In this document: piece after piece, positions 32,633 to 64,000 of the stretch
Layout: every line of letters starts with the position of its first letter
Numbering within the stretch: position 1 is the first letter of the stretch
Assembly (NCBI RefSeq): GCF_945882965.1
Contig: NZ_CAMCWY010000002.1
Coordinates: forward strand, 62,001 to 126,000
Source of the DNA: Sphingorhabdus sp. EL138
GTDB lineage: Bacteria > Pseudomonadota > Alphaproteobacteria > Sphingomonadales > Sphingomonadaceae
DNA: 64,000 nucleotides
Reading direction: 5' to 3'
The notes under the pieces: generated by a model
Seen by the model: the letters and a program-made list of their open reading frames with translations, nothing else
The model's database searches: none
What the model was told of the DNA's origin: nothing
Position numbers and translations under genes: made by a program

Positions 32633-33048
32633 CGCATTCAATTATATCAAAGACTTGCGTGGAAACTGTGGGATTACCCACCTTTCTACCCACCTTTAAG
32701 TGCGGGCTTACCGCCGACTGCTTCGCACCAAGAAAACACCCCCCCACCCCTTTAAAAACCTGCCCAACCGAGACCCCACCGGGGTGGCACCCCCCTATTC
32801 TGGCGGATGGGACCCACAGTTCCTTCTTACATACTATTCTGCGCGTCTGGTTAGCTAGGTTTCATTCACAACTTAAGGCGTCACATCCAGGTGACGTCCA
32901 TGCGTCGGCTGGCGAGCTCGAACATTAGGAGCGACTGCGGCGATTGTGTTTCGACATTGCAGCGGGCCGGTTTGTGATAGCCATGCATGGGGTTAAATTC
33001 AGGAACGGCTTAGCTCCGACTATCAGGCATACCGCCACTCTTAGCTAG
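32633..33048. other. non-coding stretch downstream of tRNA-Ser
   Basis: No recognisable gene. It contains a tandem-like CCCACCTTTCTACCCACCTT, a run of nine C residues near 32745 and short broken frames. This is the usual place for an integrase next to a tRNA, but none is left. Confidence 0.5.
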
Positions 33049-33210
33049 ACCAGAACACTCCTTAAATCACAACATCAAATCTGTGCCATTGGTGCTGACG
33101 GGGAACAATTGCGGGACACCGCCGCTGGATTGGCAGTTGGGTTTCACAAATATGTCATTATAGATAGTTATGGCAACGTGGCACTCAGCGCCGAACCGGG
33201 GGGCGATTGA
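33049..33210 (+). pseudogene. possible C-terminal remnant of an unknown gene
   Basis: A 53-codon open stretch that ends with a proper stop just inside the alternative SulP start. Its last 35 residues (IGADGEQLRDTAAGL... YVIIDSYGNVALSAEP) look like real protein: good hydrophobic periodicity and GC-rich third positions. There is no start codon of its own and the upstream part is closed by a stop, so it would be the end of a truncated gene. The family is not recognised. Confidence 0.3.
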
Positions 33211-33242
33211 CGCTGGAAACCACCTTTCGGGGCATCGAACTC

Positions 33243-35489: not shown

Positions 35490-35492
35490 CCT

Positions 35493-36545
35493 TTGCCCGA
35501 GGAGTGCTGCATTATCCGTGCTGATCGCCCGTTGCATTTGGCCGCGGCTTTGAGCTGCCTGGCGCTGTGGTGTGCGCCTGGCATCGCTCAAACCGTGCCG
35601 CCGTTGCCTGTCGAAGACATTGTCGTCATCGATAGCGATCTGCCGCTGCCACCGGGTGCGCCGGCCTATGGATCGGTCGTGATCGAGCGGGAACGATTGG
35701 CGGGTGATGCCTCGGGTCGGGTCGAAAATGTGCTCCGCGATGTCGCCGGGTTTCAGCAATTTCGCCGATCGGACAGCCGATCCGCCAACCCAACAGCGCA
35801 GGGTGTGACGCTGCGGTCGCTGGGCGGCAATGCCTCCAGCCGGGCGCTGGTGCTGCTCGACGGGGTGCCGGTGGCCGAACCGTTTTTCGGGCATATTCCC
35901 TTCACCGCGATCGTCGGTGACCGGCTGTCGGCGGTGCGGGTGACGCGCGGCGGCGGCGCGGGGGCGTTCGGCGCAGGCGCAGTGGCGGGGACGATCGAAC
36001 TGGTCAGCGCGACGCGGCGCGACCTGCCGGGGGTGGACGGCAGTGCCTTTTACGGCAGCAACGATGCGCAAGAGATCACCGCGAGCCTTTCGCCCGATCT
36101 CGGCGGCGGTTTTGCGACCCTTTCCGGCCGGTTCGAGCGCGGTGATGGTTTCTTCACGACGCCACTCGCCCAGCGCGTGCCCGCAACGGCCAGGGCTGGC
36201 TATCGCGACTGGTCGGTCGGGATTCGGGCAGTCGCGCCGCTCGATGATCTGACGGAGCTGCAGGTGCGCGGGCTCGTGTTCGGCGATAACCGAACGCTGC
36301 GTTTTCGCGGGGCGAACAGCAGCACCGGGGGGCAGAATGCGAGCGTCCGGCTGGTGCATCGCGGGCCGCGGGCGGTGGATGCGATCGCTTATCTGCAGGC
36401 GCGCAACTTCACCAACACGGTCATCAGCGCGACCAGTTTCCGCCGCACGCTCGATCAACGTGCCACACCCGCCAGCGTTCCCAGCGACAAGGCGGTGCAT
36501 GTAGGACTGTACGGACTCGTGGGACATCTTTCATATTGCCGATAG
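35493..36545 (+). pseudogene. TonB-dependent receptor, 3'-truncated
   Basis: It encodes a signal peptide (LAAALSCLALWCAPGIAQ), a TonB-box-like VEDIVVIDS and a full plug domain (NVLRDVAGFQQFRRSDSR... LVLLDGVPVAEPFFG... VRVTRGGGAGAFGAGAVAGTIEL). The barrel then stops: after about residue 335 (TPASVPSDK) the frame runs into unrelated sequence and ends within 15 codons, where 600-700 residues are expected. The breakpoint near 36495-36500 coincides with a GC drop. The annotated start is TTG; a GAGGAG lies 6 bases before an in-frame ATT at 35511, so the start is unclear. Probably non-functional. Confidence 0.8.
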
Positions 36546-36622
36546 GCGGCTAAAGAACATTGTGAAACTCGCAAATTCAACTTACAATTGAGCAGCGCCA
36601 GTCGGTAATATATTGGAAGTCT

Positions 36623-38509
36623 ATGGATTTTTCTCCGCCAATTATCTCAGCTAATAAATTGAATCTACATGTTTTTTCTGGAAAATCGCGGTTCGAATCC
36701 GGCTACTGGCGCGGCATGCGCCAGGCAGCCTATGTTGTCGAACTACATACTGAGCATAGACCCGTCCCTGCCACAGTGCTCCAGACCCATGATGCCATCT
36801 GCCGTGCTCTCGGTTCACAATTGTCTTCCGGACACCATGGACCAACAATCAAAATCCTACCCGAGGATGATAATGTGATCCGGCATGTCCTACAATTGGC
36901 AACCACGATTCTGGCGGGCCTGGGAATGCCGGATTTTGGAGGAAGCACGGCCATAAGAGTAGGGGTAACGGCGGGCCAAACAAAATGGCTTGCCGGGTTG
37001 CCAGCGATCAACCCTGACAATCCGGCTCCACAGATCGCTCTGCAGATTTCCATCAATCTCTTTAATGCACTGTTGGCTGGAGCCTCTGTCGCACAAGACA
37101 CTGTGCGGGCGCAAATTGATCAAATTGCCCTTCAGCTGCGGTCCAAGGCCCCAGGAGGCATCAACACGATACGCTTCCTGGCTGCGGCTAACGCGCTCGA
37201 TATTCCCTGGCGCCATGTGGGAGGAAACATCTACCAGTTCGGTTGGGGGAGCAGATCGCGCTGGTTGGATAGTTCCTTCACCGACCAGACCCCGCAACTC
37301 AGCGCGATGGCCGCCCGTGATAAACGGCTTTGCGCCAAGATCCTCCGAGACTTTGGTCTGCCTGTTCCAAACCAGATGTCTGTTGGCACAGCCGATCAAG
37401 CCGTGGCCGCTGCGCGAAAGATTGGATACCCGGTTGTGGTTAAGCCGGCTGACCTTGATGGGGGCCTGGGTGTTCATGCCGGCCTCACCAATGACCAACA
37501 TGTAAAGAATGCGTTCGCAGACGCCGGCAAGCTAAGCAAGCGCATTCTCGTCGAGCAGTTTCTAACTGGCGGTGACTTCAGGTTTCAGGTTTTCGATGGC
37601 AAGGTGTTTTGGGCTGTTCGCCGAAGACCCGCCTGCGTGATTGGAGATGGACGACAGTCTATTACGCAGTTGGTTACTGCCCTTAACGCTAGACGTGCCG
37701 AACGAAAAACACTGCAGGGCGCGGATCATATGGCCGAACAGGGCCGCGAAGCCATCGTTCTGGACGCCGAGGCAGACATCTGGCTGGCAGCGCAGGGCTT
37801 GGGTATGGACCGCGTGCCAGTAGAGGGCCAGCGCGTCCGGCTCGCTGGCGCCGCAAACGTGTCGCGGGGCGGCACCCGCCAAGGCATTGAACTGCACCAC
37901 ATCCATCCCGACAATGCAGCACTGGCCATTGATGCGACGCGTCTTCTGAAGCTCGATCTGGCGGGCGTTGATCTAATCTTGCCCGACGTCACACAGTCCT
38001 GGCGCGAGACGGGCGGCGGGATCTGCGAGGTCAACGGTCAGCCGCAACTGGCTCCCCACCTTCCCCGTCAACTACTGCCACAGATTGTGCCCGGCCAAGG
38101 GCGGATACCCGTCTTTGCGCTGCTACTGTCGCCAGAAAGCTGGATCAACCTAACCGCGCTTTGTCAGATGCTGGCCAAGGACTATCCCAGCTTCGCCTTC
38201 GCGCAGGATTCCGCCAGCTGGCTCAGGGCAAGCAATACGCGCCACGTCGAAGCCATTGTCTACGGTGTGGGTGCTGCAGATCTCCAGAGAATGTCATTCC
38301 CGTTCGATCGCGCTGATGTGCTGATCACATCCAAGGACAGGGTCGATCCCAGCGCCGTCTCGAAACTCAAGGTGTTACTGCAGCCGGCACAACACTGGCT
38401 TGCGCAGCCGGGGTCCGGCGACGCTTCAAGCGAGATTTGCCGCAAACTACTCAGCCGGGCTGCGCACGTCGTTGAACATCACCGAGCCCACCCGACCCTT
38501 CCGATCTAA
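36623..38509 (+). CDS. cyanophycin-synthetase-like ATP-grasp ligase
   Basis: 628 residues. An N-terminal CphA-like region (SGYWRGMRQAAYVVEL) is followed by a motif close to the pre-grasp of cyanophycin synthetases, IYQFGWGSRSRWLDSSFTD (about 204-222). The ATP-grasp fold follows (ILRDFGLPVPNQ; IGYPVVVKPADLDGGLGVHAG with Lys near 274; RILVEQFLTGGDFRFQVFDGK; DLAGVDLILPD; GGGICEVNGQP as the metal-binding end). It lacks the Mur-ligase half of true cyanophycin synthetase; a 130-residue C-terminal extension of unknown fold takes its place. Expected chemistry: acyl-phosphate activation of a carboxylate and amide bond formation with an amine. First gene of a three-gene cassette. A relative starts at 63129. 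Confidence 0.88.
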   Translation: MDFSPPIISANKLNLHVFSGKSRFESGYWRGMRQAAYVVELHTEHRPVPATVLQTHDAICRALGSQLSSGHHGPTIKILPEDDNVIRHVLQLATTILAGLGMPDFGGSTAIRVGVTAGQTKWLAGLPAINPDNPAPQIALQISINLFNALLAGASVAQDTVRAQIDQIALQLRSKAPGGINTIRFLAAANALDIPWRHVGGNIYQFGWGSRSRWLDSSFTDQTPQLSAMAARDKRLCAKILRDFGLPVPNQMSVGTADQAVAAARKIGYPVVVKPADLDGGLGVHAGLTNDQHVKNAFADAGKLSKRILVEQFLTGGDFRFQVFDGKVFWAVRRRPACVIGDGRQSITQLVTALNARRAERKTLQGADHMAEQGREAIVLDAEADIWLAAQGLGMDRVPVEGQRVRLAGAANVSRGGTRQGIELHHIHPDNAALAIDATRLLKLDLAGVDLILPDVTQSWRETGGGICEVNGQPQLAPHLPRQLLPQIVPGQGRIPVFALLLSPESWINLTALCQMLAKDYPSFAFAQDSASWLRASNTRHVEAIVYGVGAADLQRMSFPFDRADVLITSKDRVDPSAVSKLKVLLQPAQHWLAQPGSGDASSEICRKLLSRAAHVVEHHRAHPTLPI

Positions 38510-38529
38510 TCCTGAATGGAGCAGCCGCT

Positions 38530-39006
38530 ATGACTACGGGCACCCGAGTTGCACCCGCCCGATATGAACCACTCATGTCGGACTACCTGGCAAAGCAAAA
38601 AGCCAACGAGCGCTGGACAATAAACACGATTGATTGGGATGGAACAACATTAAAAGCAGATGTGTCTCTAATTGGGTGGACCAATTCTGAGACTGATAAC
38701 AATCTTTTTCACGTGTCCATTTTCTCGATACGCGAGATCGATGCACAGCTCGGTATCATTGGTCTTCATTTGAAGCTCGGTTTAGAACGAAAGACGGCCG
38801 AGGTTTGGTTGCTAAAGTGCGTTGAGGAGTGCCGACGGGCCATAAGAGATCCTAACAATATCATGGTTTCCATAACCTTCGATATCCGACCCACGAAGAG
38901 CGGGAAACTCTTGAGCGAACGGCAGTCGACCATCACCGATCCGCACGGTGGCCTCATAGACCTCTCAATCACCAACTACCTTCCACACGATTTTCCCAAA
39001 GTCTGA
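38530..39006 (+). CDS. small protein, possibly hot-dog/FcoT-like thioesterase
   Basis: 158 residues, soluble. The predicted pattern is an N-terminal beta hairpin (WTINTIDWDGTTLKADVSLIG), a long central helix region (REIDAQLGIIGLHLKLGLERKTAEVWLLKCVEECRR) and a C-terminal beta sheet ending GGLIDLSITNYLP. This beta-helix-beta order with a Gln in the central helix recalls hot-dog thioesterase-like proteins such as FcoT, but the match is from pattern only and no catalytic residue can be named. It lies 20 bases after the ATP-grasp gene and 4 bases before the oxygenase gene, so all three are one operon. Confidence 0.55.
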   Translation: MTTGTRVAPARYEPLMSDYLAKQKANERWTINTIDWDGTTLKADVSLIGWTNSETDNNLFHVSIFSIREIDAQLGIIGLHLKLGLERKTAEVWLLKCVEECRRAIRDPNNIMVSITFDIRPTKSGKLLSERQSTITDPHGGLIDLSITNYLPHDFPKV

Positions 39007-39010
39007 GCAC

Positions 39011-39904
39011 ATGAAGCCCATGGTGAATAATGTGCTTACTCTCCGAGAACTCCCGAACCCATCGGACCTGAAGGAAAAGCTTGACGCCCAAGGCTGGCTT
39101 ATCATCAGAGACGAAGTGTGCAGTGTCGAGCAGTTTGAACAGGTTTCAAAACTTTGGTTCTCGCAGTTTCATACGTCAGCAACCCGCCATGATCGCAACC
39201 AATCAAGCCCCGACGGCCTCTCCTTACAGGTACGCTCATCGGGGCATTTGTTAGCACATGCAGAAGGCTACTACAGGCCCTGCCTACCGCCACCTGATGT
39301 TGGCCTACTGTGGTGTAAGACCGCGCCCCAAGGTGCAGGCGGAGAAACCTCTTTGTTTGACGGCGCCGCTTTCTTTGATGCCCTCCCAACAGCTATCGCA
39401 GAGCGACTTGAAAAAGAGAAGGTCATCTATGAATTATCTTGGCCGAAGGATCGATGTAACCTAGAGTTTTCAACATCATCTGTTAAACGGCTAGTAAAGA
39501 TGTTTGAGGTAAATAAGAGTATATCTTTCAATTTTAATATAGATGAGCATCTACACCTTCACTATCATGCGAAAGCAGTGACGGAAGATACTCTTGGAAG
39601 ACGGCGATTTATAAATGGCTTTCTTGCCCACCTTCCATTGGTGACCCATCCGAGCTACGCTGGAAACGTCTTTACTCGCCCGCATAATGGGGTGTATTGG
39701 CAGGACATGTCACCGTGGGACTCCATTGATATCGATCCCATCATTGATGCCCACGACCATGTAATGCAACGTCATCGTTGGCAGGAAGGGGACTTGCTCA
39801 TAATAAACAACCACACTCATCTTCATGGTCGTGTCGCACTTGCAGCACCAGAAGCGCGAGAGATCTTCAGCCGCTTCGCCTACTGGTCACACGGAGAGGT
39901 GTAG
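39011..39904 (+). CDS. Fe(II)/2-oxoglutarate-dependent oxygenase, TauD/clavaminate-synthase-like
   Basis: 297 residues of the TauD/TfdA superfamily. The iron triad reads H83-x-E85 (LAHAEGYY) and His272 (NNHTHLHGR); the 2-oxoglutarate-binding Arg is likely Arg288 (FSRFAYW). PPPDVGLLWCKTAPQGAGGETSLFDG after the first motif is typical of the SyrP/clavaminate synthase branch, which uses H-x-E rather than H-x-D and acts on amino-acid-derived intermediates in natural product pathways. Last gene of the ATP-grasp cassette; the coding end is more AT-rich than the ATP-grasp gene. Hydroxylation, desaturation or cyclisation of the ligase product is inferred. Confidence 0.85.
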   Translation: MKPMVNNVLTLRELPNPSDLKEKLDAQGWLIIRDEVCSVEQFEQVSKLWFSQFHTSATRHDRNQSSPDGLSLQVRSSGHLLAHAEGYYRPCLPPPDVGLLWCKTAPQGAGGETSLFDGAAFFDALPTAIAERLEKEKVIYELSWPKDRCNLEFSTSSVKRLVKMFEVNKSISFNFNIDEHLHLHYHAKAVTEDTLGRRRFINGFLAHLPLVTHPSYAGNVFTRPHNGVYWQDMSPWDSIDIDPIIDAHDHVMQRHRWQEGDLLIINNHTHLHGRVALAAPEAREIFSRFAYWSHGEV

Positions 39905-39980
39905 TGTCCGTCGTCAGATGATTTGAGACTGTTTGCAGTTTAAAACAGGTGAGTGTTTAGGTTCATCAGTTGGGTTGATA

Positions 39981-40090
39981 TTAGGCAGCGAGCTTGCGGT
40001 GTTGCAAGCGCCGATATTCGATAGTCTGTTGTTTGATCCTTTCGCGTTGTTTGATGATGGATTGCGCCCTGCCGAAGTAGGTGACCGGCC
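39981..40090 (-). mobile_element. C-terminal remnant of an IS3-like transposase
   Basis: The last 33 codons of a transposase read VTYFGRAQSIIKQRERIKQQ then TIEYRRLQHRKLAA and a stop, resembling the C-terminus of integrase-core transposases that end in YFGR...RR..L.HR. Nothing upstream in the same frame continues it; a second, different IS remnant follows. Non-functional. Confidence 0.5.
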
Positions 40091-40115
40091 CCCATTGAGT
40101 GGTCCGGTTTGATTG

Positions 40116-40495
40116 TTAGTGCATGATTGCCTCCTTGGCCAGTGTTGACCGTAGGTGGAGCGAGGCGGAACCGGAGGACGGCACTGGCCAAGGGATGGTC
40201 TGTGGTGCGGGTGGGCGATAACCAAGCGAGCTATGTGGTCTGACAGTATTGTAATGCCGCCGCCATGCTTCGATCAGGATTTGGGCTTCGGCAAGTCTGT
40301 AGAAGATTTCGCCATTAAGCAACTCGTCACGCAAGCTGCCGTTGAAGGTTCCACAATAGCCGTTCTCCCGCGGGCTAACCGGTGTGATGTAAGGCGTCTG
40401 CGCCACGATCTGTCCCCACATTCACGGCAGTGGCAATCAACTCGGGGCCATTTTCAGACTTGACGCCCAAGTTGGTGACAGCATTGTTGACCTTC
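40116..40495 (-). pseudogene. IS3-family OrfB transposase remnant (frameshifted, 5'-truncated)
   Basis: The DDE integrase-core C-terminus is clear: SENGPELIA, then YITPVSPRENGYCGTFNGSLRDE, ILIEAWRRHYNTVRPHSSLGYRPPAP, and a stop at 40116. Compared with intact relatives there is a frameshift near 40405-40410, between SENGPELIATAVN and WGQIVAQTPYIT, and the first two catalytic Asp regions are missing. Non-functional. It separates the oxygenase cassette from the exopolysaccharide-side genes. Confidence 0.8.
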
Positions 40496-43975: not shown

Positions 43976-44623
43976 ATGAATAAAAAACAATATATCAGTG
44001 TCGGCGCAGTCTCAAAAATAGAAAAAATATTTGTTAAATCTCGTGGCTCAGGGGTTGGAAATTTAAATCCCCTGCACCCTGTTCGGTCGCCTTTGCCTCG
44101 GACAACAAACGCGACTGGCGCCAGCTGGTACGTGGCGCAGGTTCTGACGCAAAAGGAGGCCTACGCTGCGCTGCACTTGGCGCGGCAGGGCTTTGAAACG
44201 TTCTACCCACGCTTCCAACGCACCCGCAGCCACGCGCGCAAGCGGGACACCGTCTTATTTCCCCTGTTCCCAGGATATATCTTCGTAAAATTCGACATCA
44301 AAGTCGACCGCTGGCTGGCGGTCAATTCCACGCAGGGCGTCATCCGCCTCGTGGGGCCGAGGCTGAGCGCGCCGTCCGCCGTCAGCCAAGAATTGATCGA
44401 CCTCTTAATGTCTCGCTGCAGCGACGGCGTCATCGTTAGGCTGCCGGAGTATATCCGGACAGGGGAGCGCATCCTAATTACTGCAGGCGCACTCGCCGGC
44501 CAAATTGCGACCATTGAGGCCCTCGATGACCGCGGCCGCGTCAGCGTATTGCTGAGCCTCCTCGGGACCGAGCACAGCGTCTCGGTCCGCGCCGACCAAC
44601 TCGCCCCTATGGCTGCCACGTGA
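43976..44623 (+). CDS. NusG/RfaH-like transcription antiterminator
   Basis: 215 residues. The NGN domain is at about 50-150 (ASWYVAQVLTQKEAYAALHLARQGFETFYPRF... LFPGYIFVKFDI...VNSTQGVIRLVG) and the KOW domain at about 160-210 (IRTGERILITAGALAGQIATIEALDDRGRVSVLLSLLG). Specialised NusG paralogues (RfaH, UpxY, LoaP) let RNA polymerase read through long polysaccharide operons, and this one is the first gene of such a locus. The first 48 residues are AT-rich in coding and not NusG-like, so translation may start later (for example TTG 44093). Its stop overlaps the next GTG start. Confidence 0.88.
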   Translation: MNKKQYISVGAVSKIEKIFVKSRGSGVGNLNPLHPVRSPLPRTTNATGASWYVAQVLTQKEAYAALHLARQGFETFYPRFQRTRSHARKRDTVLFPLFPGYIFVKFDIKVDRWLAVNSTQGVIRLVGPRLSAPSAVSQELIDLLMSRCSDGVIVRLPEYIRTGERILITAGALAGQIATIEALDDRGRVSVLLSLLGTEHSVSVRADQLAPMAAT

Positions 44624-45714
44624 AGGGGTTTAGTGAATTGCCACTGCCTGACGCCAGCTTTCTCGCGTACCTGACCGCGGCCGGACTTCTCACCCTGATT
44701 TTGTGCCGCCGCGCCCCCGTGATTGGCGCACGCCTCGGGCTCATCGACGACCCGAGGGCCAAGGCGCACAGCCTCCACGAGAGGAGCACGCCCCTCGTCG
44801 GCGGCATTGCCGTCATTCTGCCGTCACTGCTGCTGACTGGCGCCGACGCAATGCTGCGTGGGTTCTCTGGTGGTTGGGATAGTGCACCGACCGCCGCCGC
44901 GGGCTTCTCTCTCCTCGTCGTCACCCTCATGCTCCTCGGCGCCCTTGACGACCGCGTCCACCTGTCGGCACGCCTTCGGCTCGCAGTCACTGCGACGATG
45001 TTTACCCTGTTTACGTATCTATATCCCGCCTTCAGCGTCGCGTCGCTGGCCGCGCCCGGCTTCGGCGTCTCCGTCTCCTTGGGATACATGGCCGCGCCAT
45101 TCTCCGCCCTGTGCCTCCTCGCGTTTACCAATGCCGTGAACATGGCCGACGGGCGCAATGGACTGGTCATCGGCCTCAGTCTAATCTGGTGCCTGACACT
45201 GAGCCTCTACGTGCCGACGCATCTGCAGGTGCCGCTATACGGGGTCGCGGTCTCGTTGCTAGTCACAGGATACTACAACCTCAGGGGAAAACTGTTTTTG
45301 GGTGACGGCGGCACATACGGCCTCGCGGCATTGATTGGCTTGACGGGCCTATACGCGCACGGCCTCTCGCCGCAGCCGGGCGGGATTTCATCGACCCAAC
45401 TGGCGGCGCTCTTTGCCATACCCGGCCTCGACATGTTCAGGCTCATTGCCGAGCGCAGCGAGCGCGGCGCCTCGCCATTTACGAGTGACCACGACCACCT
45501 CCACCACAGGCTAGATCGCTACATCGGCTGGCGTGCGGGGCTGCCGGTGTATCTTGCGCTGGCGGGCGGACCAATTCTGGTCGCATGCAGCGCGCCCGAT
45601 ATGGGCACGCCAGGCCTCATTGCCGCCGCGGTGTTGTATGGCGCGGCGTGGCTTGTGACACGCAGGCACCGCCAACAGTGGGGCGACGGGCCCGCGGACG
45701 GTAAGGGCACCTGA
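44620..45714 (+). CDS. WecA/MraY-family undecaprenyl-phosphate sugar-1-phosphate transferase
   Basis: 364 residues with about ten hydrophobic segments and the family motifs: IDDPRAKAHSLHERSTPLVGG, LLGALDDRVHLSARLRL (Mg site), NAVNMADGRNGL (catalytic), FLGDGGTYGL and DHDHLHHRL (sugar recognition). It attaches the first sugar-1-phosphate (often GlcNAc-1-P) to undecaprenyl phosphate and so starts repeat-unit assembly. GTG start overlapping the antiterminator stop (GTGA). Confidence 0.93.
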   Translation: MKGFSELPLPDASFLAYLTAAGLLTLILCRRAPVIGARLGLIDDPRAKAHSLHERSTPLVGGIAVILPSLLLTGADAMLRGFSGGWDSAPTAAAGFSLLVVTLMLLGALDDRVHLSARLRLAVTATMFTLFTYLYPAFSVASLAAPGFGVSVSLGYMAAPFSALCLLAFTNAVNMADGRNGLVIGLSLIWCLTLSLYVPTHLQVPLYGVAVSLLVTGYYNLRGKLFLGDGGTYGLAALIGLTGLYAHGLSPQPGGISSTQLAALFAIPGLDMFRLIAERSERGASPFTSDHDHLHHRLDRYIGWRAGLPVYLALAGGPILVACSAPDMGTPGLIAAAVLYGAAWLVTRRHRQQWGDGPADGKGT

Positions 45715-46030
45715 CGGGGGAAGATTTTAAAAAATTGACGGTATTAATTGCCGGCGATATGCACCGACAAATTTTATGAGGCTTTGGTAACGCCTCAGCC
45801 TCGGTTTAGGTATAGTTGCCACGTGGCGGCGCCCCGCGCGCGCCAATGCTCCTCAGCGGTGGGCTTTCACCCGCCGTGCGGTAGCCGTTCTGGATGCCAC
45901 TAGAATTCGCGGCCGCGCTTTTAGATACCCCCAACACGCCCAACGCATCGGGGTGTGTTGGCCCGAGGCCCGCAACACAATGGCGCCGGCGTTGCAAAAT
46001 ACCGCGCCGAACTTTTAAACACTATCTGAC
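45715..46030. other. intergenic region with a possible promoter
   Basis: TTGACG (45735-45740) and TATGCA (45758-45763) are separated by 17 bases and could be a sigma-70-type promoter for the gene at 46031. A TGAGGC/GCCTCA inverted repeat lies just downstream (about 45779-45799). No gene is seen. Confidence 0.4.
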
Positions 46031-47500
46031 ATGCAATCACCCCCAAACACACACACGCAACGCGGCGCCCCTGCATTGGCCGACCGGCGCACCGGCCCCT
46101 CGCACTCGCCTGGCACGCTTGGCCTTGCCTGCCTACTCCTCGCCAGCGCCTTCGCGCTTGGCGGCAGTGCGCGGCCCGAAGTCGCGTCCCTCGAAGTTCT
46201 GCGCCCACTGGCCGTGGTCGGGCTGGGCGTCGCCCTGCTTAACGTCCGTCGCGCGCACATCCGCCACTACCGCGTCCCACTCGCCATCGCATTACTCTGC
46301 GCCGCACTGCTGGCCCTCCAACTCGCGCCGCTGCCCGCTGGCGCGGCGAGTGCCCTGCACGGGCGCGGCCTCGTGAGCGAAATCGACGCCTCCACAGGCC
46401 TCGGATCGGCGTGGCGCCCACTGTCACTGTGGGCGCCCGCGACGCAAAATTCACTCTGGGCCCTGCTTGTGCCCCTGTCACTCCTCGCCACCTGCATCCA
46501 GTTGGGGGCGCGCGACCTGTCAAGGCTACTACTCTTGGCCCTCGCGGCGGGCGCCTCCAGCGCCATCATCGCCCTCCTCCAGACTATTGGCGACCCGCAA
46601 GGTCCGCTCTACTTCTACGACGTCACAAATTTTGGATCGGCCGTCGGCCTATTTGCCAACCGCAACCACCAGGCCGCGCTCCTCGCCTGCCTCATACCCC
46701 TGACATTTGCCGCGGTGCGTCTACGAAAAAGCAATGCGGGCGCCTCCAGCCACGTCGGCGGCAAGTTTGACCCGTGGCTCGTCGCCGCAATTGTCGCCAC
46801 CGCATTTCTCGTGCCACTCATCCTAGTCACCGGCTCCCGCACGGGCCTCCTAATGGGCGCCATCGCCCTCCTCAGTGTCGCCGCCGTCACAAACGCCGGC
46901 AGTAAGCCCGTGGCCCCCGACGGCGTTTGGACTTCGCGCAAGGCCAAGATCGCCCTCGCTGCGCTCGCCACCGCCGCCCTCGTCTCAGTCACCATTTACG
47001 TCCAGCGCGACCTCGCCATCGACCGCCTAATGGAGGCCGAGGCGGGTGAGGGCATGCGCGCACGCATTTTACCGACAATGGTCGACATGATCACGCTCCA
47101 CCAGCCGTGGGGTATCGGCCTCGGCGCATTCAGGGAAGTCTACGAGGCCAATGAGCCGACGTCGCTGCTGATGGGAGTTTACATGAACCAGGCACACAAT
47201 GACTGGCTCGACGTCGCACTCACGGGCGGCCTGCCTGGACTGGCCATCGCCGCGGTGGCTATTTGCGCGTGGCTCGCACGCGCGGCGATAGTCTTCAAGG
47301 GCGAGGCGCCAGATGACTTTCAGGCCCTGCGCGCGGCGGGCCTCACTGTGCTGCTGATACTGGCCCTCGCCTCCCTCTCCGACTACCCCGCGCGCACGCC
47401 GGCCCTGGCTTGTCTCATCGCACTCGCATCAGTATGGGCGGCCCTGCCGGCACAGCCCCGCCCCGCCGCACCTCAATATTTTGACGCCCAAGGAGCCTGA
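46031..47500 (+). CDS. O-antigen ligase/polymerase (Wzy-like) membrane protein
   Basis: 489 residues, about 11 hydrophobic segments. The central O-antigen ligase domain carries GSRTGLLMGAIALLS (about 278-292) and the large periplasmic loop has WGIGLGAFREVY...MNQAHNDWLDVALTGGLPGL (about 358-398), the H-N-D-[WL] motif common to Wzy/WaaL proteins. It polymerises or ligates lipid-linked repeat units in the periplasm. Very GC-rich with strongly C-ending codons. A second polymerase-like gene lies at 53798. Wza and Wzc genes follow directly. Confidence 0.85.
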   Translation: MQSPPNTHTQRGAPALADRRTGPSHSPGTLGLACLLLASAFALGGSARPEVASLEVLRPLAVVGLGVALLNVRRAHIRHYRVPLAIALLCAALLALQLAPLPAGAASALHGRGLVSEIDASTGLGSAWRPLSLWAPATQNSLWALLVPLSLLATCIQLGARDLSRLLLLALAAGASSAIIALLQTIGDPQGPLYFYDVTNFGSAVGLFANRNHQAALLACLIPLTFAAVRLRKSNAGASSHVGGKFDPWLVAAIVATAFLVPLILVTGSRTGLLMGAIALLSVAAVTNAGSKPVAPDGVWTSRKAKIALAALATAALVSVTIYVQRDLAIDRLMEAEAGEGMRARILPTMVDMITLHQPWGIGLGAFREVYEANEPTSLLMGVYMNQAHNDWLDVALTGGLPGLAIAAVAICAWLARAAIVFKGEAPDDFQALRAAGLTVLLILALASLSDYPARTPALACLIALASVWAALPAQPRPAAPQYFDAQGA

Positions 47501-47507
47501 CGCCCCA

Positions 47508-48245
47508 ATGAATACCAAATCTCTAGCCAAGCTGACAATCATTGCAGGCGGCGCCCTGCTAATGAGTGCCTGCGCCACGACGCCACCCGTCGGCGGCGAC
47601 CCGGGCCTGACTGTAATGCCCACGCGCGACCTGCCCACGCCCGACGCCTCTGACTACAAGCCAAATACCCGCCCCTACTTGGTGGGACCGCTGGACCGCC
47701 TCACCGTCGACGTCTTCAACGTCACCGGCCTCACGGACCGCGAAATCCAGGTCGACGCCGCCGGCAAAATGTCATTCCCCCTCGCGGGCATCATCGACGT
47801 CGCCGGACGCACGCCGGGGGAGGTGGAGGCCCTAATTGCCCAACGACTGCGCGCCACCTACATCAAAAACCCACAGGTGACGGTAAACCTCAAGGAGGCC
47901 GTCAGCCAAATCGTCACGGTCGAGGGCCAGGTTAAGAAGCCAGGCCTCTACCCCGTCACCGGCCGCATGACGCTCCTCCAAGTCATGGCCGTCGCGGAAG
48001 GGCCCGGCGACTTTGCCAACCTCGAGAATGTCATCATCTACCGCACGGTGAAGGGCCAGCGCTTCGCCGCCGTCCACGACGTCGACTACATTCGCCAGGG
48101 CGCATACCCCGACCCCGAGATTTACCCCAACGACCTCGTCATGGTCGGCGACGACGCCTCGGCGCGCCTCGTCAAGGACTTGCTGACGACCTTCTCCCTC
48201 GTGAGTGGGCCCCTCGTCATTGCCATCGACCGCCTCGCGCGGTAA
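47508..48245 (+). CDS. polysaccharide export lipoprotein (Wza/GumB-like)
   Basis: 245 residues. Lipoprotein signal with lipobox LMSAC, then a Poly_export (PES) domain (RPYLVGPLDRLTVDVFNVTGLTDREIQVDAAGKMSFPLAGIIDVAGRT) and a SLBB domain (QIVTVEGQVKKPGLYPVTGRMTLLQVMAVAEGP). It forms the outer-membrane or periplasmic channel for polymer export with the Wzc partner downstream. The start was set at 47508 so that the signal begins MNTKSLAKL; AAGGAG lies 12 bases before it. Confidence 0.93.
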   Translation: MNTKSLAKLTIIAGGALLMSACATTPPVGGDPGLTVMPTRDLPTPDASDYKPNTRPYLVGPLDRLTVDVFNVTGLTDREIQVDAAGKMSFPLAGIIDVAGRTPGEVEALIAQRLRATYIKNPQVTVNLKEAVSQIVTVEGQVKKPGLYPVTGRMTLLQVMAVAEGPGDFANLENVIIYRTVKGQRFAAVHDVDYIRQGAYPDPEIYPNDLVMVGDDASARLVKDLLTTFSLVSGPLVIAIDRLAR

Positions 48246-48304
48246 CAAAAAAGCCCGCCTCGCGCGTTAACAAAAGACACCCGCCCCGCGCGGTGCATAA
48301 AATG
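48230..48304 (+). repeat. three imperfect tandem repeats of about 25 bp between the Wza and Wzc genes
   Basis: Copies start at about 48230, 48255 and 48280. Each begins CCGCCTCGCGCG (third: CCGCCCCGCGCG) followed by a TTAACAAAA-like A-rich segment. The first covers the end and stop codon of the Wza gene; the last runs into the Wzc start codon. Confidence 0.8.
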
Positions 48305-50551
48305 AGTACACCCATGAACACACGCGACAATCCAGACAATATGCAGGCCGACCCCCGCGACGCGCGCGCGGCACTCTCGCCGCAGAAGACGCGCCTGCAG
48401 TTGGCGCAGGGAGACGACGACCGCCTCCTGCCGCCCGAGATACTGCAATACTGGCAGGTCGTGCTGCGCTGGCGCTGGGTCATTGCCGGCATCATCGCCG
48501 CCAGCCTCGCCATTGGATTGATCGTGACTTTGCTCATGTCACCGCAATACACCGCACGATCGCAGATTGAGATTTCGCGCGAGCAGAAGAACGTCACCAA
48601 CGTCGAGGGCATCGACCGCGCCTCTGAGAGCAGAGACCTAGAATTTTACGACACGCAGTACGCCCTCCTCAAGGCAGAATCACTGGCCGAGCGGGTAGGC
48701 GTCTCCCTCAAGCTGCACGAGCAGGAGGCCTTCTTTGACAGCCACGGCGTCGACGGCTCCGACCGCCCCGAGGCCCGCAGGCGCCAGGTTATGAAACTAC
48801 TGCTTGAAAACGTCACCATCGAGCCCGTCAAAAAGTCAAAGCTCGTCAACGTCAAATACACCAGCCGATCGCCCGAACTCGCCTCAAGGATTGCCGACGC
48901 GTGGGTGCGCGAGTTTATCGGCGCCAGCATGGACCGCCAATACGCCTCCAACGCAGACGCGCGACGCTTCCTAGAGCAGCGCCTGAGCGACCTGCGCGCG
49001 CGGCTGGAGAAGTCCGAGCGCGAAATGGTCACCTACGCCAGCGAGAGGGGCATCGTGGAACTCAGCACGACCCGCGACGCCGAGGGCAAGACGCAGACGC
49101 AGCAGACCCTCACCTCGGCAGACCTCGAGGGCTTCAACGCCGCACTGATCGCCGCCCGCACCGACCGCATTGCCGCGCAGAGTAAGACAACCTCCGGCGC
49201 CTCCGACACGTCCGCCGAGGCACTGGCAAACAGCACGATCTCGAGCCTGCGCCAGCGCCGCGGCGAACTTAACGCAGACTACGCCCGCCTCCTCGTGCAA
49301 TTTGAACCCGAATATCCCGAGGCGCTGGCGATCAAGGAACAGATCGACGCGCTCGACGCGTCGATCGCCCGCGAGGCGTCGCGCGTCGGCGCCAGCCAGC
49401 GCCAAGGCTACGCCGAGGCCCGCGCCCGCGAGCGGGCCCTCGAGGGTCAAGTGGGCGGCCTCAAGTCGCAGCTAGACCGCCAGCAGCGCGACAGCATTCA
49501 GCATCAGGTCCTCGTGCGCGACGCCGACACCAACCGCCAACTCTATGACGCGCTCCTCCAGCGCTACAAGGAAATCGGCATCGCCGGCGCCATCGGCACC
49601 AGCAACATTTCTGTCGTCGACAAGGCCAAAATTCCGCGCACGCCCTCCGCGCCGAGCATTCCGCTGAACCTAGCCGTCGCGCTGCTGGTGGGCCTCGGCG
49701 GCTCCCTCCTCGCCCTATTCGCGCTGGAGCAGATGAACCAGGGCATCCACGCGCCCGAGGACGTCCCCAACCTGCTGGGCTTGCCCCTGCTGGGCAATGT
49801 GCCGCTCGCGCACGGCGACCCAGCCGAGGCGCTGCGGGACCCCAAGTCGCATCTGTCGGAGGCCTACTTCTCCATCCGCTCGGCTCTGGCCTTTGCGACC
49901 ACGCACGGCGTCCCACATTCTTTGGGCCTTACGAGTACGAAGCCGAGCGAGGGCAAGTCCACCTCCGCACTCGCACTGGCGCAGATCATTGCCCGCACGG
50001 GGAAGACAGTCCTGCTGGTCGACGCCGACCTGCGCTCGCCGTCGGTGCACCAGATGTTCGGGCTCAAGAACGTGCGCGGCTTCAGCAACATGCTGACCGG
50101 AGCCGATGACGTAGGCGCCCTCGCCCTCGAGACAGACTTGGCGGGCCTGAGCGTCATGACCTCGGGCCCCAAGCCGCCCAACCCGTCCGAGTTGCTGAGC
50201 GGTGACCGCCTGAGCCAGGTACTGCGCATGCTCGAGGGCCGCTACGACCACGTCATCGTCGACTGCCCGCCCGTGCTTGGCCTGTCGGACGCGCCGCTGC
50301 TGAGCCAGGCCGTCGAGGGCCTCGTATATGTGGTGGAGCCGGAGGGCGCGCCGGTGCGGGGCATTCGCGCGTCGATCCACCGCGTGGCGATGCTGGGCGG
50401 CAACATACTGGGCGCCATTGTGACGAAGATTGACCCGAGCAAGAATAGCTACGGCTACGGCTACGGCTACGGCTACGGCTATGGCTATGGCGCCTATGGC
50501 TACGGCAGCGAGGGCGAGGCGGACGCGCCGGCGGTTGGCCGGCGTGCCTGA
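48302..50551 (+). CDS. Wzc/GumC-type chain-length determinant and tyrosine autokinase
   Basis: 749 residues. N-terminal Wzz domain with two transmembrane segments (WRWVIAGIIAASLAIGLIVTLLM near residue 55; VALLVGLGGSLLALFAL near 460) and a long coiled-coil periplasmic part. The cytoplasmic BY-kinase has Walker A STKPSEGKST (about 545), A' TVLLVDADLRSP and B HVIVDCPPVLGLSDAP. The C-terminus is a tyrosine cluster of alternating Tyr-Gly, the autophosphorylation tail. It controls polymer length and export with Wza. The start is ambiguous: GTG 48293, ATG 48302 or ATG 48314. Confidence 0.93.
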   Translation: MSTPMNTRDNPDNMQADPRDARAALSPQKTRLQLAQGDDDRLLPPEILQYWQVVLRWRWVIAGIIAASLAIGLIVTLLMSPQYTARSQIEISREQKNVTNVEGIDRASESRDLEFYDTQYALLKAESLAERVGVSLKLHEQEAFFDSHGVDGSDRPEARRRQVMKLLLENVTIEPVKKSKLVNVKYTSRSPELASRIADAWVREFIGASMDRQYASNADARRFLEQRLSDLRARLEKSEREMVTYASERGIVELSTTRDAEGKTQTQQTLTSADLEGFNAALIAARTDRIAAQSKTTSGASDTSAEALANSTISSLRQRRGELNADYARLLVQFEPEYPEALAIKEQIDALDASIAREASRVGASQRQGYAEARARERALEGQVGGLKSQLDRQQRDSIQHQVLVRDADTNRQLYDALLQRYKEIGIAGAIGTSNISVVDKAKIPRTPSAPSIPLNLAVALLVGLGGSLLALFALEQMNQGIHAPEDVPNLLGLPLLGNVPLAHGDPAEALRDPKSHLSEAYFSIRSALAFATTHGVPHSLGLTSTKPSEGKSTSALALAQIIARTGKTVLLVDADLRSPSVHQMFGLKNVRGFSNMLTGADDVGALALETDLAGLSVMTSGPKPPNPSELLSGDRLSQVLRMLEGRYDHVIVDCPPVLGLSDAPLLSQAVEGLVYVVEPEGAPVRGIRASIHRVAMLGGNILGAIVTKIDPSKNSYGYGYGYGYGYGYGAYGYGSEGEADAPAVGRRA
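50448..50510 (+). repeat. hexanucleotide repeat GGCTAC/GGCTAT coding the Tyr-Gly tail
   Basis: About eight near-identical GGCTAC or GGCTAT units in a row, one interruption (GGCGCC), then two more. They encode the alternating Tyr-Gly tail of the Wzc kinase. Six-base units keep frame if copies are gained or lost. Confidence 0.85.
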
Positions 50552-59925: not shown

Positions 59926-60699
59926 GTGCGGTTAAAGCAAGTTTTTCCTGATTTGAAAATTTCTGTTGTCACTGCGGTTTATAACCGGGTTGCGACTGTG
60001 GGGCATGCCATGGCGTCTCTTCAGGCGCAGACCCACCCCCATGTCGAACATATTGTTCAAGACGGCGGCTCCACGGACGGAACACTGGCTGCTCTAACGC
60101 AGCTTGCTATCCCGTCCACCTTCGTCCGCTCTGAACCTGACAAAGGCATTTACGATGCTATAAATCTTGGCATTGCGCGCGCCACGGGCGATATCATCGG
60201 GCTCATGCACTCAGATGACTTTTACGCTGACGATCGCGCGTTGGAACGGATTGCCGAGGCATTCGCCAGTCCCGAAGTTGACGGTGTCTACGGCGACCTT
60301 CAATACGTTGCTGGAGAAAGGCCACATGGTGTCGTGCGTCATTGGCGCTCCGGCGAATATAGTCGCTCGAAATTAGAGCGAGGTTGGATGCCGCCGCATC
60401 CTACACTTTATTTACGCCGCAAAGTTTTCGATCAGTGGGGTCTTTACGATACCAATTTTCGGATAGCTGCCGATTACGATGCGATGCTGCGTTATCTGGT
60501 GAAGGGCCAGATCAAGCTTGCCTACATTCCAGAGGTCTTGGTGAAGATGCGGATCGGCGGCGAAAGCAACCGATCGCTCAGTCGAATTCTCCTTAAAAGC
60601 CGCGAGGACCTCCAGGCTATCCGCCGGAACGGCGTCGGCGGGCTGGGAACCCTTGCGTGCAAAAACCTCCGTAAGTTACCGCAGTTCTTTCAAAGGTGA
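59926..60699 (+). CDS. glycosyltransferase family 2
   Basis: 257 residues. [82 protein letters not shown] with the metal-binding motif, and [21 protein letters not shown] are characteristic of GT2 enzymes near gmd in colanic-acid-like loci (WcaE type). The start is GTG 59926, 4 bases after the previous stop. Confidence 0.92.
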
Positions 60700-60709
60700 A
60701 AAACCAACA

Positions 60710-61831
60710 ATGACCAAACGTGCATTAATTACGGGCATCACAGGGCAGGACGGAAGCTACCTTGCCGAGTTTCTTCTTGAGAAGGGCTATGAGGTTCACG
60801 GTATCAAGCGTCGGGCGTCGTCGTTCAACACGCAGCGCATTGACCACATTTACCAAGATGTCCACGCGCCGGCCCCTCAACTTAAACTCCATTACGGCGA
60901 CCTCACCGACACCTCGAACCTGACGAGGATCTTACGTGAAGTAGAACCCGACGAGATTTACAATCTAGGCGCGCAGAGCCATGTGGCGGTTAGCTTCGAG
61001 GCGCCCGAATATACTGCAGATGTTGATGCCATGGGAACGCTACGTCTCTTGGAGGCTTTACGCTTTTTAGGTTTTGAGAAAAAATCTCGTTTCTATCAGG
61101 CCTCGACCTCGGAGCTCTATGGGCTGGTTCAAGAGACACCGCAGCGCGAGACTACACCTTTTTATCCTCGCTCCCCCTATGCCGTTGCCAAGCTTTATGC
61201 ATATTGGATGACGGTAAATTACCGTGAGGCGTATGGCATCTATGCTTGCAACGGCATCCTCTTCAATCACGAGAGCCCCCGTCGCGGCGAAACCTTCGTG
61301 ACCCGCAAAATCACTCGCGGATTGGCAAACATCAGCCAGGGCCTTGAAGGCTGCCTTTACATGGGTAACATTGATGCCCTTCGAGACTGGGGCCACGCGA
61401 AGGATTATGTCCGCATGCAGTGGATGATGCTACAGCAGGACACGCCGGATGATTTTGTCATCGCAACTGGCACCCAGCACTCGGTTCGACAATTCATAAG
61501 CTGGGCTGCCGAAGACTTGGGTATCTCCATTAAGTTCGAAGGCGAGGGCGTTGATGAGATCGGCGTTGTAGAAGGCGTGTCCGGTAATATCGCGACCGGC
61601 GTCAAGGACGGTGATATCATCGTGCGCATCGACCCACGCTACTTCCGACCGGCTGAGGTAGAGACGCTGCTGGGCGATCCCACCAAAGCCCGCGATAAGC
61701 TCGGCTGGGTGCCGGAGATCACTGCGCGCGAAATGTGCGCCGAGATGGTCGCCTCCGATCTGAACGACGCGCGCCGTCACGCGCTTTTGAAGGCGAACGG
61801 CTTTGATACGCCGATCTCGCACGAGGATTGA
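60710..61831 (+). CDS. gmd: GDP-mannose 4,6-dehydratase
   Basis: 373 residues, extended SDR. The NAD(P) motif [76 protein letters not shown] and catalytic YxxxK in [16 protein letters not shown] are all present, followed by [23 protein letters not shown]. It converts GDP-mannose to GDP-4-keto-6-deoxymannose. The start at 60710 is preceded by AAAGGTGAAA. It is directly followed by fcl. Confidence 0.97.
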
Positions 61832-61836
61832 GACAG

Positions 61837-62793
61837 ATGCGCGCCTATGTAGCCGGTCATCGCGGCATGGTGGGCAGTGCGATAGCGCGCAGCCTCGAAG
61901 CCGACGGGGCGGAGATCGTAACCGCCGCGCGGTCGGAATTGGATCTGGCCGACCAATCCGCAGTCAGGAGCTTTTTGGCAAAGGAACGCCCCGATACAGT
62001 AATCGTGGCGGCGGCAAAGGTCGGCGGCATCCATGCCAATAACACGCTGCCGGCCGAGTTCATTTACGAAAACCTGATGATCGAGTGCAATCTCATCGAC
62101 AGCGCCTTTCGTGCAGGGGTCGAGCGGCTACTCTTTTTAGGTTCGTCCTGCATTTATCCCCGCAATGCGCCGCAGCCGATGCCCGAGGAGGCTCTCCTTA
62201 CAGGCACCCTCGAGCCCACCAACGAGCCTTACGCCATTGCCAAGATTGCGGGCATCAAGCTGTGCGAGAGTTATAACAGGCAGTATGGGGTCGACTATCG
62301 CTCGGCGATGCCTACGAACCTGTATGGACCCGGCGACAATTTCCACGAGACTAAATCGCACGTCCTTCCGGCTCTGCTGCGGCGCTTCCATGAGGCCAAG
62401 CAAGCCGGTTCGGAAGAGGTCGTCATCTGGGGTACCGGAACCCCTAAGCGCGAGTTCCTGCACGTTGATGACATGGCAGCGGCTTGTGTATTTCTATTGA
62501 ACCTTCCTAAAGACATTTACGCAGCCAATACCCAGCCCATGCTGAGCCACATCAACGTTGGGACCGGCAGCGATGTCTCGATCGCGGATCTTGCGGGCGT
62601 CATTGCACAGGTCACGGGGTTTGAGGGGCGCATTTCGTTTGATACGACAAAACCCGATGGGACGCCGCGCAAGCTTCTGGATGTCACGCGCCTCACGAAT
62701 ATGGGCTGGACGGCGAGCATTCAGCTTGAGGAAGGCATCCGCCAGACCTATGACTGGTATCTGGCGAACCAGGGTTATCTGCGAGCAGCGTAA
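61837..62793 (+). CDS. fcl: GDP-L-fucose synthase
   Basis: 318 residues. [21 protein letters not shown] (NADP motif GxxGxxG), [59 protein letters not shown], the catalytic YAIAK, and [12 protein letters not shown] are the GDP-fucose synthetase signature. It epimerises and reduces the Gmd product to GDP-L-fucose. ATG 61837 lies 5 bases after the gmd stop; an upstream TTG at 61828 is less likely. Confidence 0.97.
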
Positions 62794-62882
62794 GGCCGTG
62801 AGAAGCTAAATCTTGGACCCAGTTTGTGCACTGCTGCGCCCCTGGCGCAACACACCAAATGTCTAAACCGAGGAAAATATTA

Positions 62883-63116
62883 ATGGCATCCAATCCACGT
62901 GTTGTCCCAGTAATTCTGTGCGGTGGCGCAGGGACCCGTCTGTGGCCTGTTTCCAGAAAGTCTTCGCCCAAGGAATTCAAGCCGCTTTTGGGCGAGACTA
63001 GCCTGCTGCAAGATGCGGCCATGCGTGTGCGAGGCGATGGCTTTGACAGTCCACTCGTCGTCACGGCAGAGCCATTTCGCTTCATCGTCTCCGAGCAGTT
63101 ATCGCAAACTTGTTAA
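62883..63116 (+). pseudogene. manC: mannose-1-phosphate guanylyltransferase, truncated N-terminal fragment
   Basis: The frame codes for the perfect start of ManC: RVVPVILCGGAGTRLWPVSRKSSPKEFKPLLGETSLLQDAAMRV (nucleotide-binding GGAGTRLWP loop) and PLVVTAEPFRFIVSEQL, then SQTC and a stop after 77 codons, where about 470 are expected. The conserved continuation of RFIVSEQL is lost at about 63100, and AT-rich foreign sequence follows. It cannot make GDP-mannose, so the gmd substrate must come from another guanylyltransferase elsewhere, or the fragment is a recombination scar. Confidence 0.9.
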
Positions 63117-63128
63117 ATAAAATTAGGA

Positions 63129-64000
63129 ATGGTTAATATTGTGATTGATTCAAATAATGAATATACAAATCTAAACATCTATTTGGAATTATCTTTTATT
63201 ATTCCAAAAACTTCTAATGAATATGATAAGTGGGCTGATATTTTCGTCGGGCGAGAAAACTGGGTCGACAATCTGCAGTTGAAAAATTTTAATGCATCAC
63301 CAGTTTTTCATTCGATATATATAGAATCAATACTTCATTCCTATAGACTACTTTGCGAGTTAGCTCGGCTGCCTATTTTTGACACTCCAAAGTTAGTATC
63401 TTTATCGGAGGATAAAATTGATGCTAATAGATACACAATAAAAATCGGAACATATTTAGATACTAAGGTGTCACAATCTGTCTATAAAAAACTTATAAAC
63501 ACCGCTTTAAAAATTTGTGAATGGATGGCCCAACATAGCCCCACACCAGACAATAAGCACAAGCTATTTAGCACCATTACCGAAAAAGTGATTAAACCGC
63601 TTCATCAAATTATTCCAGCTGGGAAATCCACTATTCCGGTACTTCGAGTTGCGCATGCCTTGGGAATTCCTTTCATTCATTTGGGCTTGGGCGTGTATCA
63701 GCTAGGTTGGGGTAGCAAAGCCAGAAGACTTGACAGAAGCATCTGTGAATTTGATTCAGCGATTGGGACAAGGCTAGCACAAAACAAGGTTTCAACTGCA
63801 AACATTCTGCGTGAAGTTGGGCTGCCGGCTCCAGTACATGGGGTAACTACAACAGAAACCGATGCTCTCGCAATTGCTACAAAAATTGGGTTTCCGGTGG
63901 TAGTTAAGCCAGCTGACGGCGACAGAGGCGAAGGGGTAACTGTAGATATTTTTGAGGAGACGCAGCTTACGGCGGCCTTTGCTCCTGCCCACAAATTGTC
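63129..64000 (+). CDS. cyanophycin-synthetase-like ATP-grasp ligase, second copy (3' cut by window edge)
   Basis: Open from ATG 63129 to the window end, 290 codons so far, with AGGA just before the start. A divergent AT-rich N-terminus (SFIIPKTSNEYDKWADIFVG) is followed by VYQLGWGSKARRLDRSI, NILREVGLPAPVHG and IGFPVVVKPADGDRGEGVTV, collinear with IYQFGWGSRSRWLDSSF, ILRDFGLPVPNQ and IGYPVVVKPADLDGGLGV in the gene at 36623. Both therefore belong to the same ATP-grasp group, closest in pattern to the ATP-grasp half of cyanophycin synthetases. It follows the broken manC after 12 bases. Substrate unknown; whether an oxygenase gene follows cannot be seen. Confidence 0.88.
   Translation, partial: MVNIVIDSNNEYTNLNIYLELSFIIPKTSNEYDKWADIFVGRENWVDNLQLKNFNASPVFHSIYIESILHSYRLLCELARLPIFDTPKLVSLSEDKIDANRYTIKIGTYLDTKVSQSVYKKLINTALKICEWMAQHSPTPDNKHKLFSTITEKVIKPLHQIIPAGKSTIPVLRVAHALGIPFIHLGLGVYQLGWGSKARRLDRSICEFDSAIGTRLAQNKVSTANILREVGLPAPVHGVTTTETDALAIATKIGFPVVVKPADGDRGEGVTVDIFEETQLTAAFAPAHKL

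Follow-up and report, generated by a model that had tools for sequence, protein, structure and literature searches.

Cyanophycin synthetases and the ATP-grasp ligases of the E-64 and dapdiamide pathways are the described systems closest to the gene considered here. The roles of individual residues of the cyanophycin synthetase CphA1 have been assigned for TeCphA1 in passages of PMC9427784, and the passages of PMC10206079 on CphA2 present it as a cyanobacterial enzyme that repolymerises β-Asp-Arg. In the formation of E-64 and dapdiamide, as described in PMC12568646, an ATP-grasp ligase works together with an ANL amide synthetase, and the E-64 system adds an Fe(II)/α-ketoglutarate oxygenase.

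In this work we have analyzed the right end of a 64,000-nucleotide stretch of Sphingorhabdus sp. EL138 DNA (the window), where gmd and fcl are followed by the 5′ stump of manC and by a stand-alone CphA-type ATP-grasp ligase, designated ligase B. With a probability of about three in four we read the locus as the scar of recombination within an island of exopolysaccharide genes, holding a complete and laterally acquired ligase B among remnants of an IS3-family element, the enzyme being a putative CphA-derived amide ligase.

Methods

The window spans contig C2 (156,725 bases) from 62001 to 126000; the genome comprises 2.36 Mb in 38 contigs. A further 30.7 kb to the right of the window edge were added (L007; L007 coordinate + 62000 = window position), chiefly the first 12 kb of which were analyzed, and the genes right of ligase B were annotated from frames of at least 150 codons in L007. 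A contig scan of genomes with ligase B alone as the query gave no relative; a second scan (alignment A2) was followed for the best 80 of 113 loci, seven of which (L116-L120, L128 and L161) were studied closely. The named ligase relatives were retrieved via two peptide patterns and represent a thin sampling. In the order, 45 genomes had a match, the own genome included, and stretches were taken from eight, plus two same-genus genomes. The tree comprises 36 rows, among whose sources are 16 loci of the second scan, 13 ligases of seven genomes and three CphA rows; the ligases in L077 (genome G258), L085 (G043) and L087 (G141) were left out of it. TeCphA1 residue positions were matched to the alignment by eye.

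Results

The manC stump and its junction with ligase B

The initial annotation had manC ending after 77 codons and a ligase beginning 12 bases later, which is the arrangement found (Table 1); the ligase frame that it saw running off the window closes in L007 as an intact gene. The stump covers profile positions 2-68 of 245 in Pfam NTP_transferase and only positions 2-71 of 467 in the GMP_PMI model (79.5 bits against a cut-off of 372.95), well short of a full ManC guanylyltransferase domain. Of 199 genomes of the family searched with it, nine gave a match at E <= 1e-18, its own genome being one; the other eight manC homologues have open frames of 340-485 residues, the starts of which are 48-64% identical to the stump. 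Since the GMP_PMI search of the genome detects just one other gene, on contig C7 (a 421-codon frame matching positions 1-349), the manC remainder was not detected elsewhere in the genome at E <= 0.01, and the expectation that manC would resume to the right did not hold. The C7 gene could serve as the source of GDP-mannose.

Table 1 Features of the manC/ligase B and ligase A regions and two further ligase genes. Positions refer to the window unless a contig (C2, C23) is named.
Feature	Position	Strand	Basis or remark
IS3 left end, 61 bp	33047..33107	-	outer terminus toward ligase A segment
TonB-receptor gene, 3′-truncated, before ligase A	35493..36545	+	Plug domain only
Ligase A, paralogue of a different clade	36623..38509	+	Pfam, pairwise comparison, tree
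158-aa protein	38530..39006	+	no family match
TauD-type Fe(II)/α-ketoglutarate oxygenase	39011..39904	+	Pfam TauD 2.8e-20
IS3 right end	39905..40081	-	first base directly follows the TauD stop
gmd (GDP-mannose 4,6-dehydratase), upstream neighbour	60713..61831	+	inside ORF 60653-61831
fcl/wcaG (GDP-L-fucose synthase), intact neighbour	61828..62793	+	ORF
manC 5′ stump, 77 codons + TAA	62883..63116	+	ORF, Pfam, GMP_PMI, homologues
12-base junction	63117..63128	+	manC stump and ligase B in the same frame
Ligase B, stand-alone CphA-type ATP-grasp ligase	63129..64000, on to 64787	+	complete, 552 aa; ATG at 63129; L007:1129-2787
Ligase C	C23:291-1892		stand-alone CphA-type
Ligase D	C2:14102-15931		stand-alone CphA-type

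In two same-genus genomes gmd (84% identical) is likewise followed by fcl (69-70% identical). manC is absent from the examined stretches of three relatives with adjoining gmd and fcl, and is therefore no fixed neighbour of the pair. The present arrangement probably arose from a host-like manC, of which the first 77 codons remained after gmd-fcl and the rest was lost. That the ligase "broke into" manC, as had been suggested, finds no backing at the junction: manC lacks its distal side, and neither an IS3 terminal repeat nor another IS end occurs there, which leaves the joining of the stump and ligase B unexplained.

Composition changes sharply at this point, from 58% GC in fcl and 56% in the stump to 33% in the first 500 bp of ligase B (42% over the whole gene), so the ligase is indeed AT-rich as first described. 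Such a step could be produced by an assembly chimera at 63110-63130; we consider this very unlikely, since the junction lies inside a contig of 156,725 bases, positions 62400-64000 match the genome at a single place, and the junction region shares just a 16-bp chance match with the stretches compared.

The junction also bears an exact GTTRRRY motif, the core-like site GTTAAAT just before the ligase B ATG, and an inverse-core-like GCCTAGC with one mismatch comes right after the ligase B stop, as if an integron-type cassette had entered a secondary site in manC; the ligase of L079 has a GTTRRRY shortly before its start as well. The motif is common, however, at about 1.6 per kb on both strands of C2, and it occurs within 120 bp upstream of only two of the 12 ligases shown, being absent for A, C, D and the ligase of L116; no exact inverse core follows ligase B. 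No integron integrase scores above the cut-off in the genome, where two frames of about 310 codons reach up to 67 bits against 265, and sub-cut-off matches to the same model were given by all 14 of 14 control genomes. The combination of attC and integrase that defines an integron cassette was thus not found, and an origin of this kind, extremely improbable in our estimate, was set aside on the commonness of the motif and the sub-cut-off integrase scores. An Rfam search over L007:600-6000 at E <= 1 gave no match.

Affinity and composition of ligase B

The genome holds four stand-alone CphA-type ligases, A to D. Over whole proteins, ligase B is 27% identical to A, 31% to D and 24% to C; the relationship first noted between B and the ligase at 36623 is real, amounting to 42% over 139 aa for the piece of B visible in the window. 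In the tree ligase B pairs with a protein from an Alcaligenaceae MAG (L116; support 100/99), and the pair falls inside a Burkholderiales clade with Ramlibacter, Caenimonas and Quisquiliibacterium (98/96). Ligase D is basal in the larger clade (100/100). For ligase A the partners are four ligases from its own taxonomic family (87/76), joined at 99/97 by a Ramlibacter paralogue. A constrained grouping of A with B was rejected (p-AU 0.0002, at a cost of 174 log-likelihood units), a test that allows only in part for the long branches of seven rows, A, C and D among them, which places the two ligases in different clades.

The L116 protein is the closest relative of ligase B. It had been suspected that ligase B is a truncated relic, A, C, D and other relatives being longer at their N- or C-termini; this reading was dropped, as the L116 protein also has 552 aa with the same alignment end and the proteins of L117 and L128 have nearly the same C-terminal end. 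In GC content at the three codon positions ligase B (0.53/0.37/0.37) is near the L116 gene (0.56/0.36/0.37) and unlike fcl (0.61/0.45/0.69) and ligase A (0.67/0.46/0.61), the latter being close to the host. Ligase B would accordingly be a lateral acquisition, with a low-GC relative of the Burkholderiales as the most likely donor. The donor group is represented by one MAG contig at about 50% identity to ligase B; the transfer would therefore be old, or the true donor is unsampled.

A four-ligase profile gave more than 40 bits in only two of the 44 other genomes of the genus, G054 (356 bits; a ligase within the ligase A clade) and G043 (149 bits; a ligase outside the tree sampling), although all 44 give at least weak ATP-grasp matches. 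Ligase B is therefore no housekeeping ligase in conserved order, in agreement with the initial annotation. Carriage by a plasmid or phage was rejected: 125 plasmid records match, all below 60% identity and none over 80% of the query (19 of 20 among the matches listed are annotated as cyanophycin synthetase), and three phage records match weakly.

Ligases of this type also occur in other arrangements. Genome G065 carries four different ones in tandem (L083:2430-9648), with cupin and vitamin-transporter genes near, two further tandem ligases in L082 and one in L084, at least seven in total. In genome G087 a lone ligase gene lies between mnmE and mnmG (L078:4094-9337).

IS3 remnants and the ligase A segment

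From 12 bp past the ligase B stop to window position 65219 lies an IS3 element that keeps both its ends and lacks its middle. Rightward of it come a gene for an outer-membrane beta-barrel, a right IS3 end, a gene assigned by eye as SOUL-like, two right IS3 ends, genes for a sulfotransferase and a glycosyltransferase, an IS5 transposase fragment, genes for an AMP-ligase and an SDR, a gene of MipZ type on the opposite strand and, last, a left IS3 end. The two right ends stand in tandem at L007:5091-5165, as from nested insertion.

A copy with both orfA and orfB transposase frames, as expected of the IS3 family, is present on C7. Its orfB scores 192.7 bits with the IS3 model (cut-off 160) and its orfA 46 bits with the same model; orfB scores higher with the IS481 model (214.6), yet below the cut-off of the latter (224). 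No left terminus of the C7 copy was located. Several places have right termini, and left termini were seen at C2:136090 and 95107 (28-base matches); the left terminus behind ligase B is degenerate, and the copy there is the only one showing both ends.

IS3 sequence occurs in 13 places of the genome, four of them within 10 kb right of ligase B (expected 0.055; Poisson 3.7e-7), and three of the four ligase genes lie at most 1.5 kb from such a place (rough P 8e-5; two of four at 700 bp, P 0.002), the 10 kb and 1.5 kb limits having been set post hoc and islands gathering IS and ligase genes alike. Ligase C is 608 bp from an IS3 fragment. Immediately upstream of ligase C (L010:2192-2473) are fragments of a XerC-like tyrosine recombinase and of an IS3 orfB, and a 51-bp piece on its downstream side is identical to window positions 40082-40132.

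The other ligase of the window lies in a segment (33108-39904) flanked on one side by a left and on the other by a right IS3 end, equally oriented and both fragments only. Between these ends, at 33047-40081, are a sulfate permease gene, the truncated TonB-receptor gene, ligase A, the gene of a 158-aa protein and the TauD gene, an arrangement that resembles a decayed composite transposon. The TonB-receptor gene matches only positions 28-245 of 614 of the BtuB model, so that ligase A, too, stands beside a truncated gene, as had been claimed for both ligases. The label "hot-dog-like" given to the 158-aa protein could not be upheld: no Pfam or NCBIfam model matches it. A 33% identical relative of it is encoded, with a TauD relative, near a 910-codon ATP-grasp frame in a cyanobacterial MAG (L157:682-4816), and the trio at the ligase A locus may therefore be an older gene set. 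Further right, window positions 44001-50000 have 62-68% GC and a mostly strong negative GC skew, unlike their flanks, and exopolysaccharide genes of 39-44% GC come directly after them.

It had been proposed that such ligase cassettes move as units, A and B being copies of one, each of which broke the gene it landed behind. That both stand behind 3′-truncated genes speaks for this, as do the same IS3 remnants near both (12 bp from B; for A a left end at 33107 and a right one at 39905, each on the minus strand) and the position of ligase C close to IS3 and XerC-like fragments. The proposal is nevertheless largely refuted by the placement of A and B in different clades; ligase A is near-host in composition, the companions of A and B differ, the compared flanks of the ligases share IS sequence only, and ligase D has no IS3 remnant within 79 kb on its own contig. 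Companions like those of A were not found on the right of B, where an oxygenase and a hot-dog-like gene had been anticipated: Pfam detects no oxygenase among seven genes there, and tblastn with the TauD and 158-aa proteins of the ligase A locus gave no match in L007 or L008. We judge a common cassette very improbable.

The IS3 copies themselves, rather than the ligases, may have moved segments of mixed cargo, the ligases being over-represented because the island collects accessory genes. The IS3 ends set between the outer-membrane, SOUL-like and sulfotransferase genes and the framed five-gene segment of ligase A favour this possibility, to which we give somewhat less than even odds; no IS end lies left of B, and the remnants could be later insertions. 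Returning to the scar reading, the differences in clade, composition and neighbours, together with the IS3 sequence right of ligase B, make B look laterally acquired in an IS3-scarred island that IS3 activity would have shaped. Of the earlier interpretation, an accessory, foreign-looking gene at a scarred spot is thus supported, and the identity of A and B as copies of one moving cassette finds no support.

Domains and predicted chemistry

The best families for ligase B are two cyanophycin synthetase models, at 211.4 and 233.5 bits against cut-offs of 850 and 877; it thus stays below the NCBIfam curated cut-off for CphA1. The match ends at position 453 of ligase B, equivalent to 446-447 of models that have 862 and 871 positions, and covers their N and G parts only. 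No Mur domain was detected by Pfam in the 552 aa, in keeping with the early end of the family match. Ligase B would descend from the N and G (ATP-grasp) domains of a cyanophycin synthetase and act as a free-standing enzyme.

A G domain with the ATP/Mg residues and Arg309 of CphA1, with roles as given in the passages of PMC9427784 on TeCphA1, is kept throughout: K220, K261, R309, D431 and E450 (TeCphA1 numbering) are present in all 36 rows. Four residues assigned to recognition in CphA1 by the same passages, E215, H267, N394 and R458, are replaced by R, R, S and G in ligase B. The pattern R/K, R, S, G is shared by ligase B and six rows of its clade above D; ligase D has N, R, L and G, and ligase A keeps Asn394 with M, G and A at the sites of E215, H267 and R458. 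Among nine CphA-sized rows (L052, L053, L059, L121, L123, L126, L129, L134 and L141) six have E, H, N and R, and the other three have D at 215, two of them with Q at 267 as well. The retention of Arg309 and of the residues for ATP, Mg and the acyl phosphate, the replaced recognition residues and the missing Mur domain point to amide ligation through an acyl phosphate as the likely reaction and make cyanophycin synthesis unlikely: ATP would phosphorylate a carboxylate, and attack by an amine on the acyl phosphate would yield the amide.

The structure was modelled for the relative L116 from eight sequences (pLDDT 77.8, pTM 0.61, domain placement unreliable). In Foldseek this model aligned nearly full-length with the CphA2 structures 7ta5 and 8fxh/8fxi, a type of about 630-640 aa with N and G domains and a reduced M region, but at an rmsd of 17.5-18.6 Å and a TM-score (by query) of 0.35-0.43.

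Of four Burkholderiales relatives of ligase B, three have an AMP-binding enzyme next to the ligase or fused to it. The AMP-binding gene lies directly upstream in Ramlibacter and Caenimonas, and Quisquiliibacterium transsilvanicum has one 1125-codon open frame with AMP-binding and CphA-type ATP-grasp parts (L128:5144-8521). L116 has no adjacent AMP-binding gene; the neighbours of its ligase, UPF0149 and VWA genes, lie on the opposite strand. A Sulfurimonas MAG carries an OCD-family gene and a TauD gene after the ligase, and in a Deltaproteobacteria MAG a BKACE-GNAT fusion lies just upstream. The AMP-ligase of the window genome, 5.7 kb from ligase B, resembles the AMP-binding enzymes that accompany the relatives at only 26-28%. 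Ligase D is convergent, with a slight overlap, with a gene for an aKG-HExxH-type peptide beta-hydroxylase (L009:8036-9121, equal to C2:13036-14121; TIGR04267, 99 bits), which is a lead that some such ligases act on peptides.

The placement of ligase B between exopolysaccharide genes would suit an enzyme that couples amino acids as amides to the uronic acids of the exopolysaccharide, a role for which it would have been selected in the island. Its relatives occur in unrelated settings, next to UPF0149 and VWA genes, in the interval from mnmE to mnmG, or beside AMP-binding enzymes, and we think such a role improbable.

Discussion

As a scar, the locus represents no more than ordinary genome plasticity. 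The interest lies in the enzymes, cyanophycin-synthetase-like ligases that appear to keep the chemistry without the features of cyanophycin synthesis, and whose neighbours, AMP-binding enzymes, TauD oxygenases and the aKG-HExxH peptide hydroxylase, hint at the assembly of small molecules or peptides. Tentatively, and with more doubt than confidence, we propose that the clade of ligase B, marked by the R/K-R-S-G signature and often by an AMP-binding partner, is an undescribed family of amide ligases that make a small molecule independently of NRPS and have spread between bacterial classes, partly via IS3-scarred islands. We found no description of such a CphA-like group in the open-access literature searched.

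Compared with known systems, ligase B shares an ATP-grasp stretch with N-acetylglutaminylglutamine synthetase (TIGR03103), at 117 bits against a cut-off of 569, and is no member of that family. CphA1 (TIGR02068/PRK14016; PDB 7wac, 7lg5) is the best family and structure match, having the same order of N and G and the ATP-grasp core; it differs in its Mur-ligase domain and its four recognition residues, and ligase B reaches 211 bits against 850. CphA2 (PDB 7ta5, 8fxh/8fxi) is similar in size (629 and 642 aa) and has no working Mur site, whereas the fold alignments, made with the relative L116, give 17-20% identity. In its working, the predicted enzyme may be closest to the logic of E-64 and dapdiamide (PMC12568646), the likeness lying in the AMP-binding enzymes beside the relatives of ligase B and the OCD-family and TauD genes in Sulfurimonas; by this analogy with Cp1B and DdaF, which concerns operation only, ligase B would form amide bonds on a small molecule.
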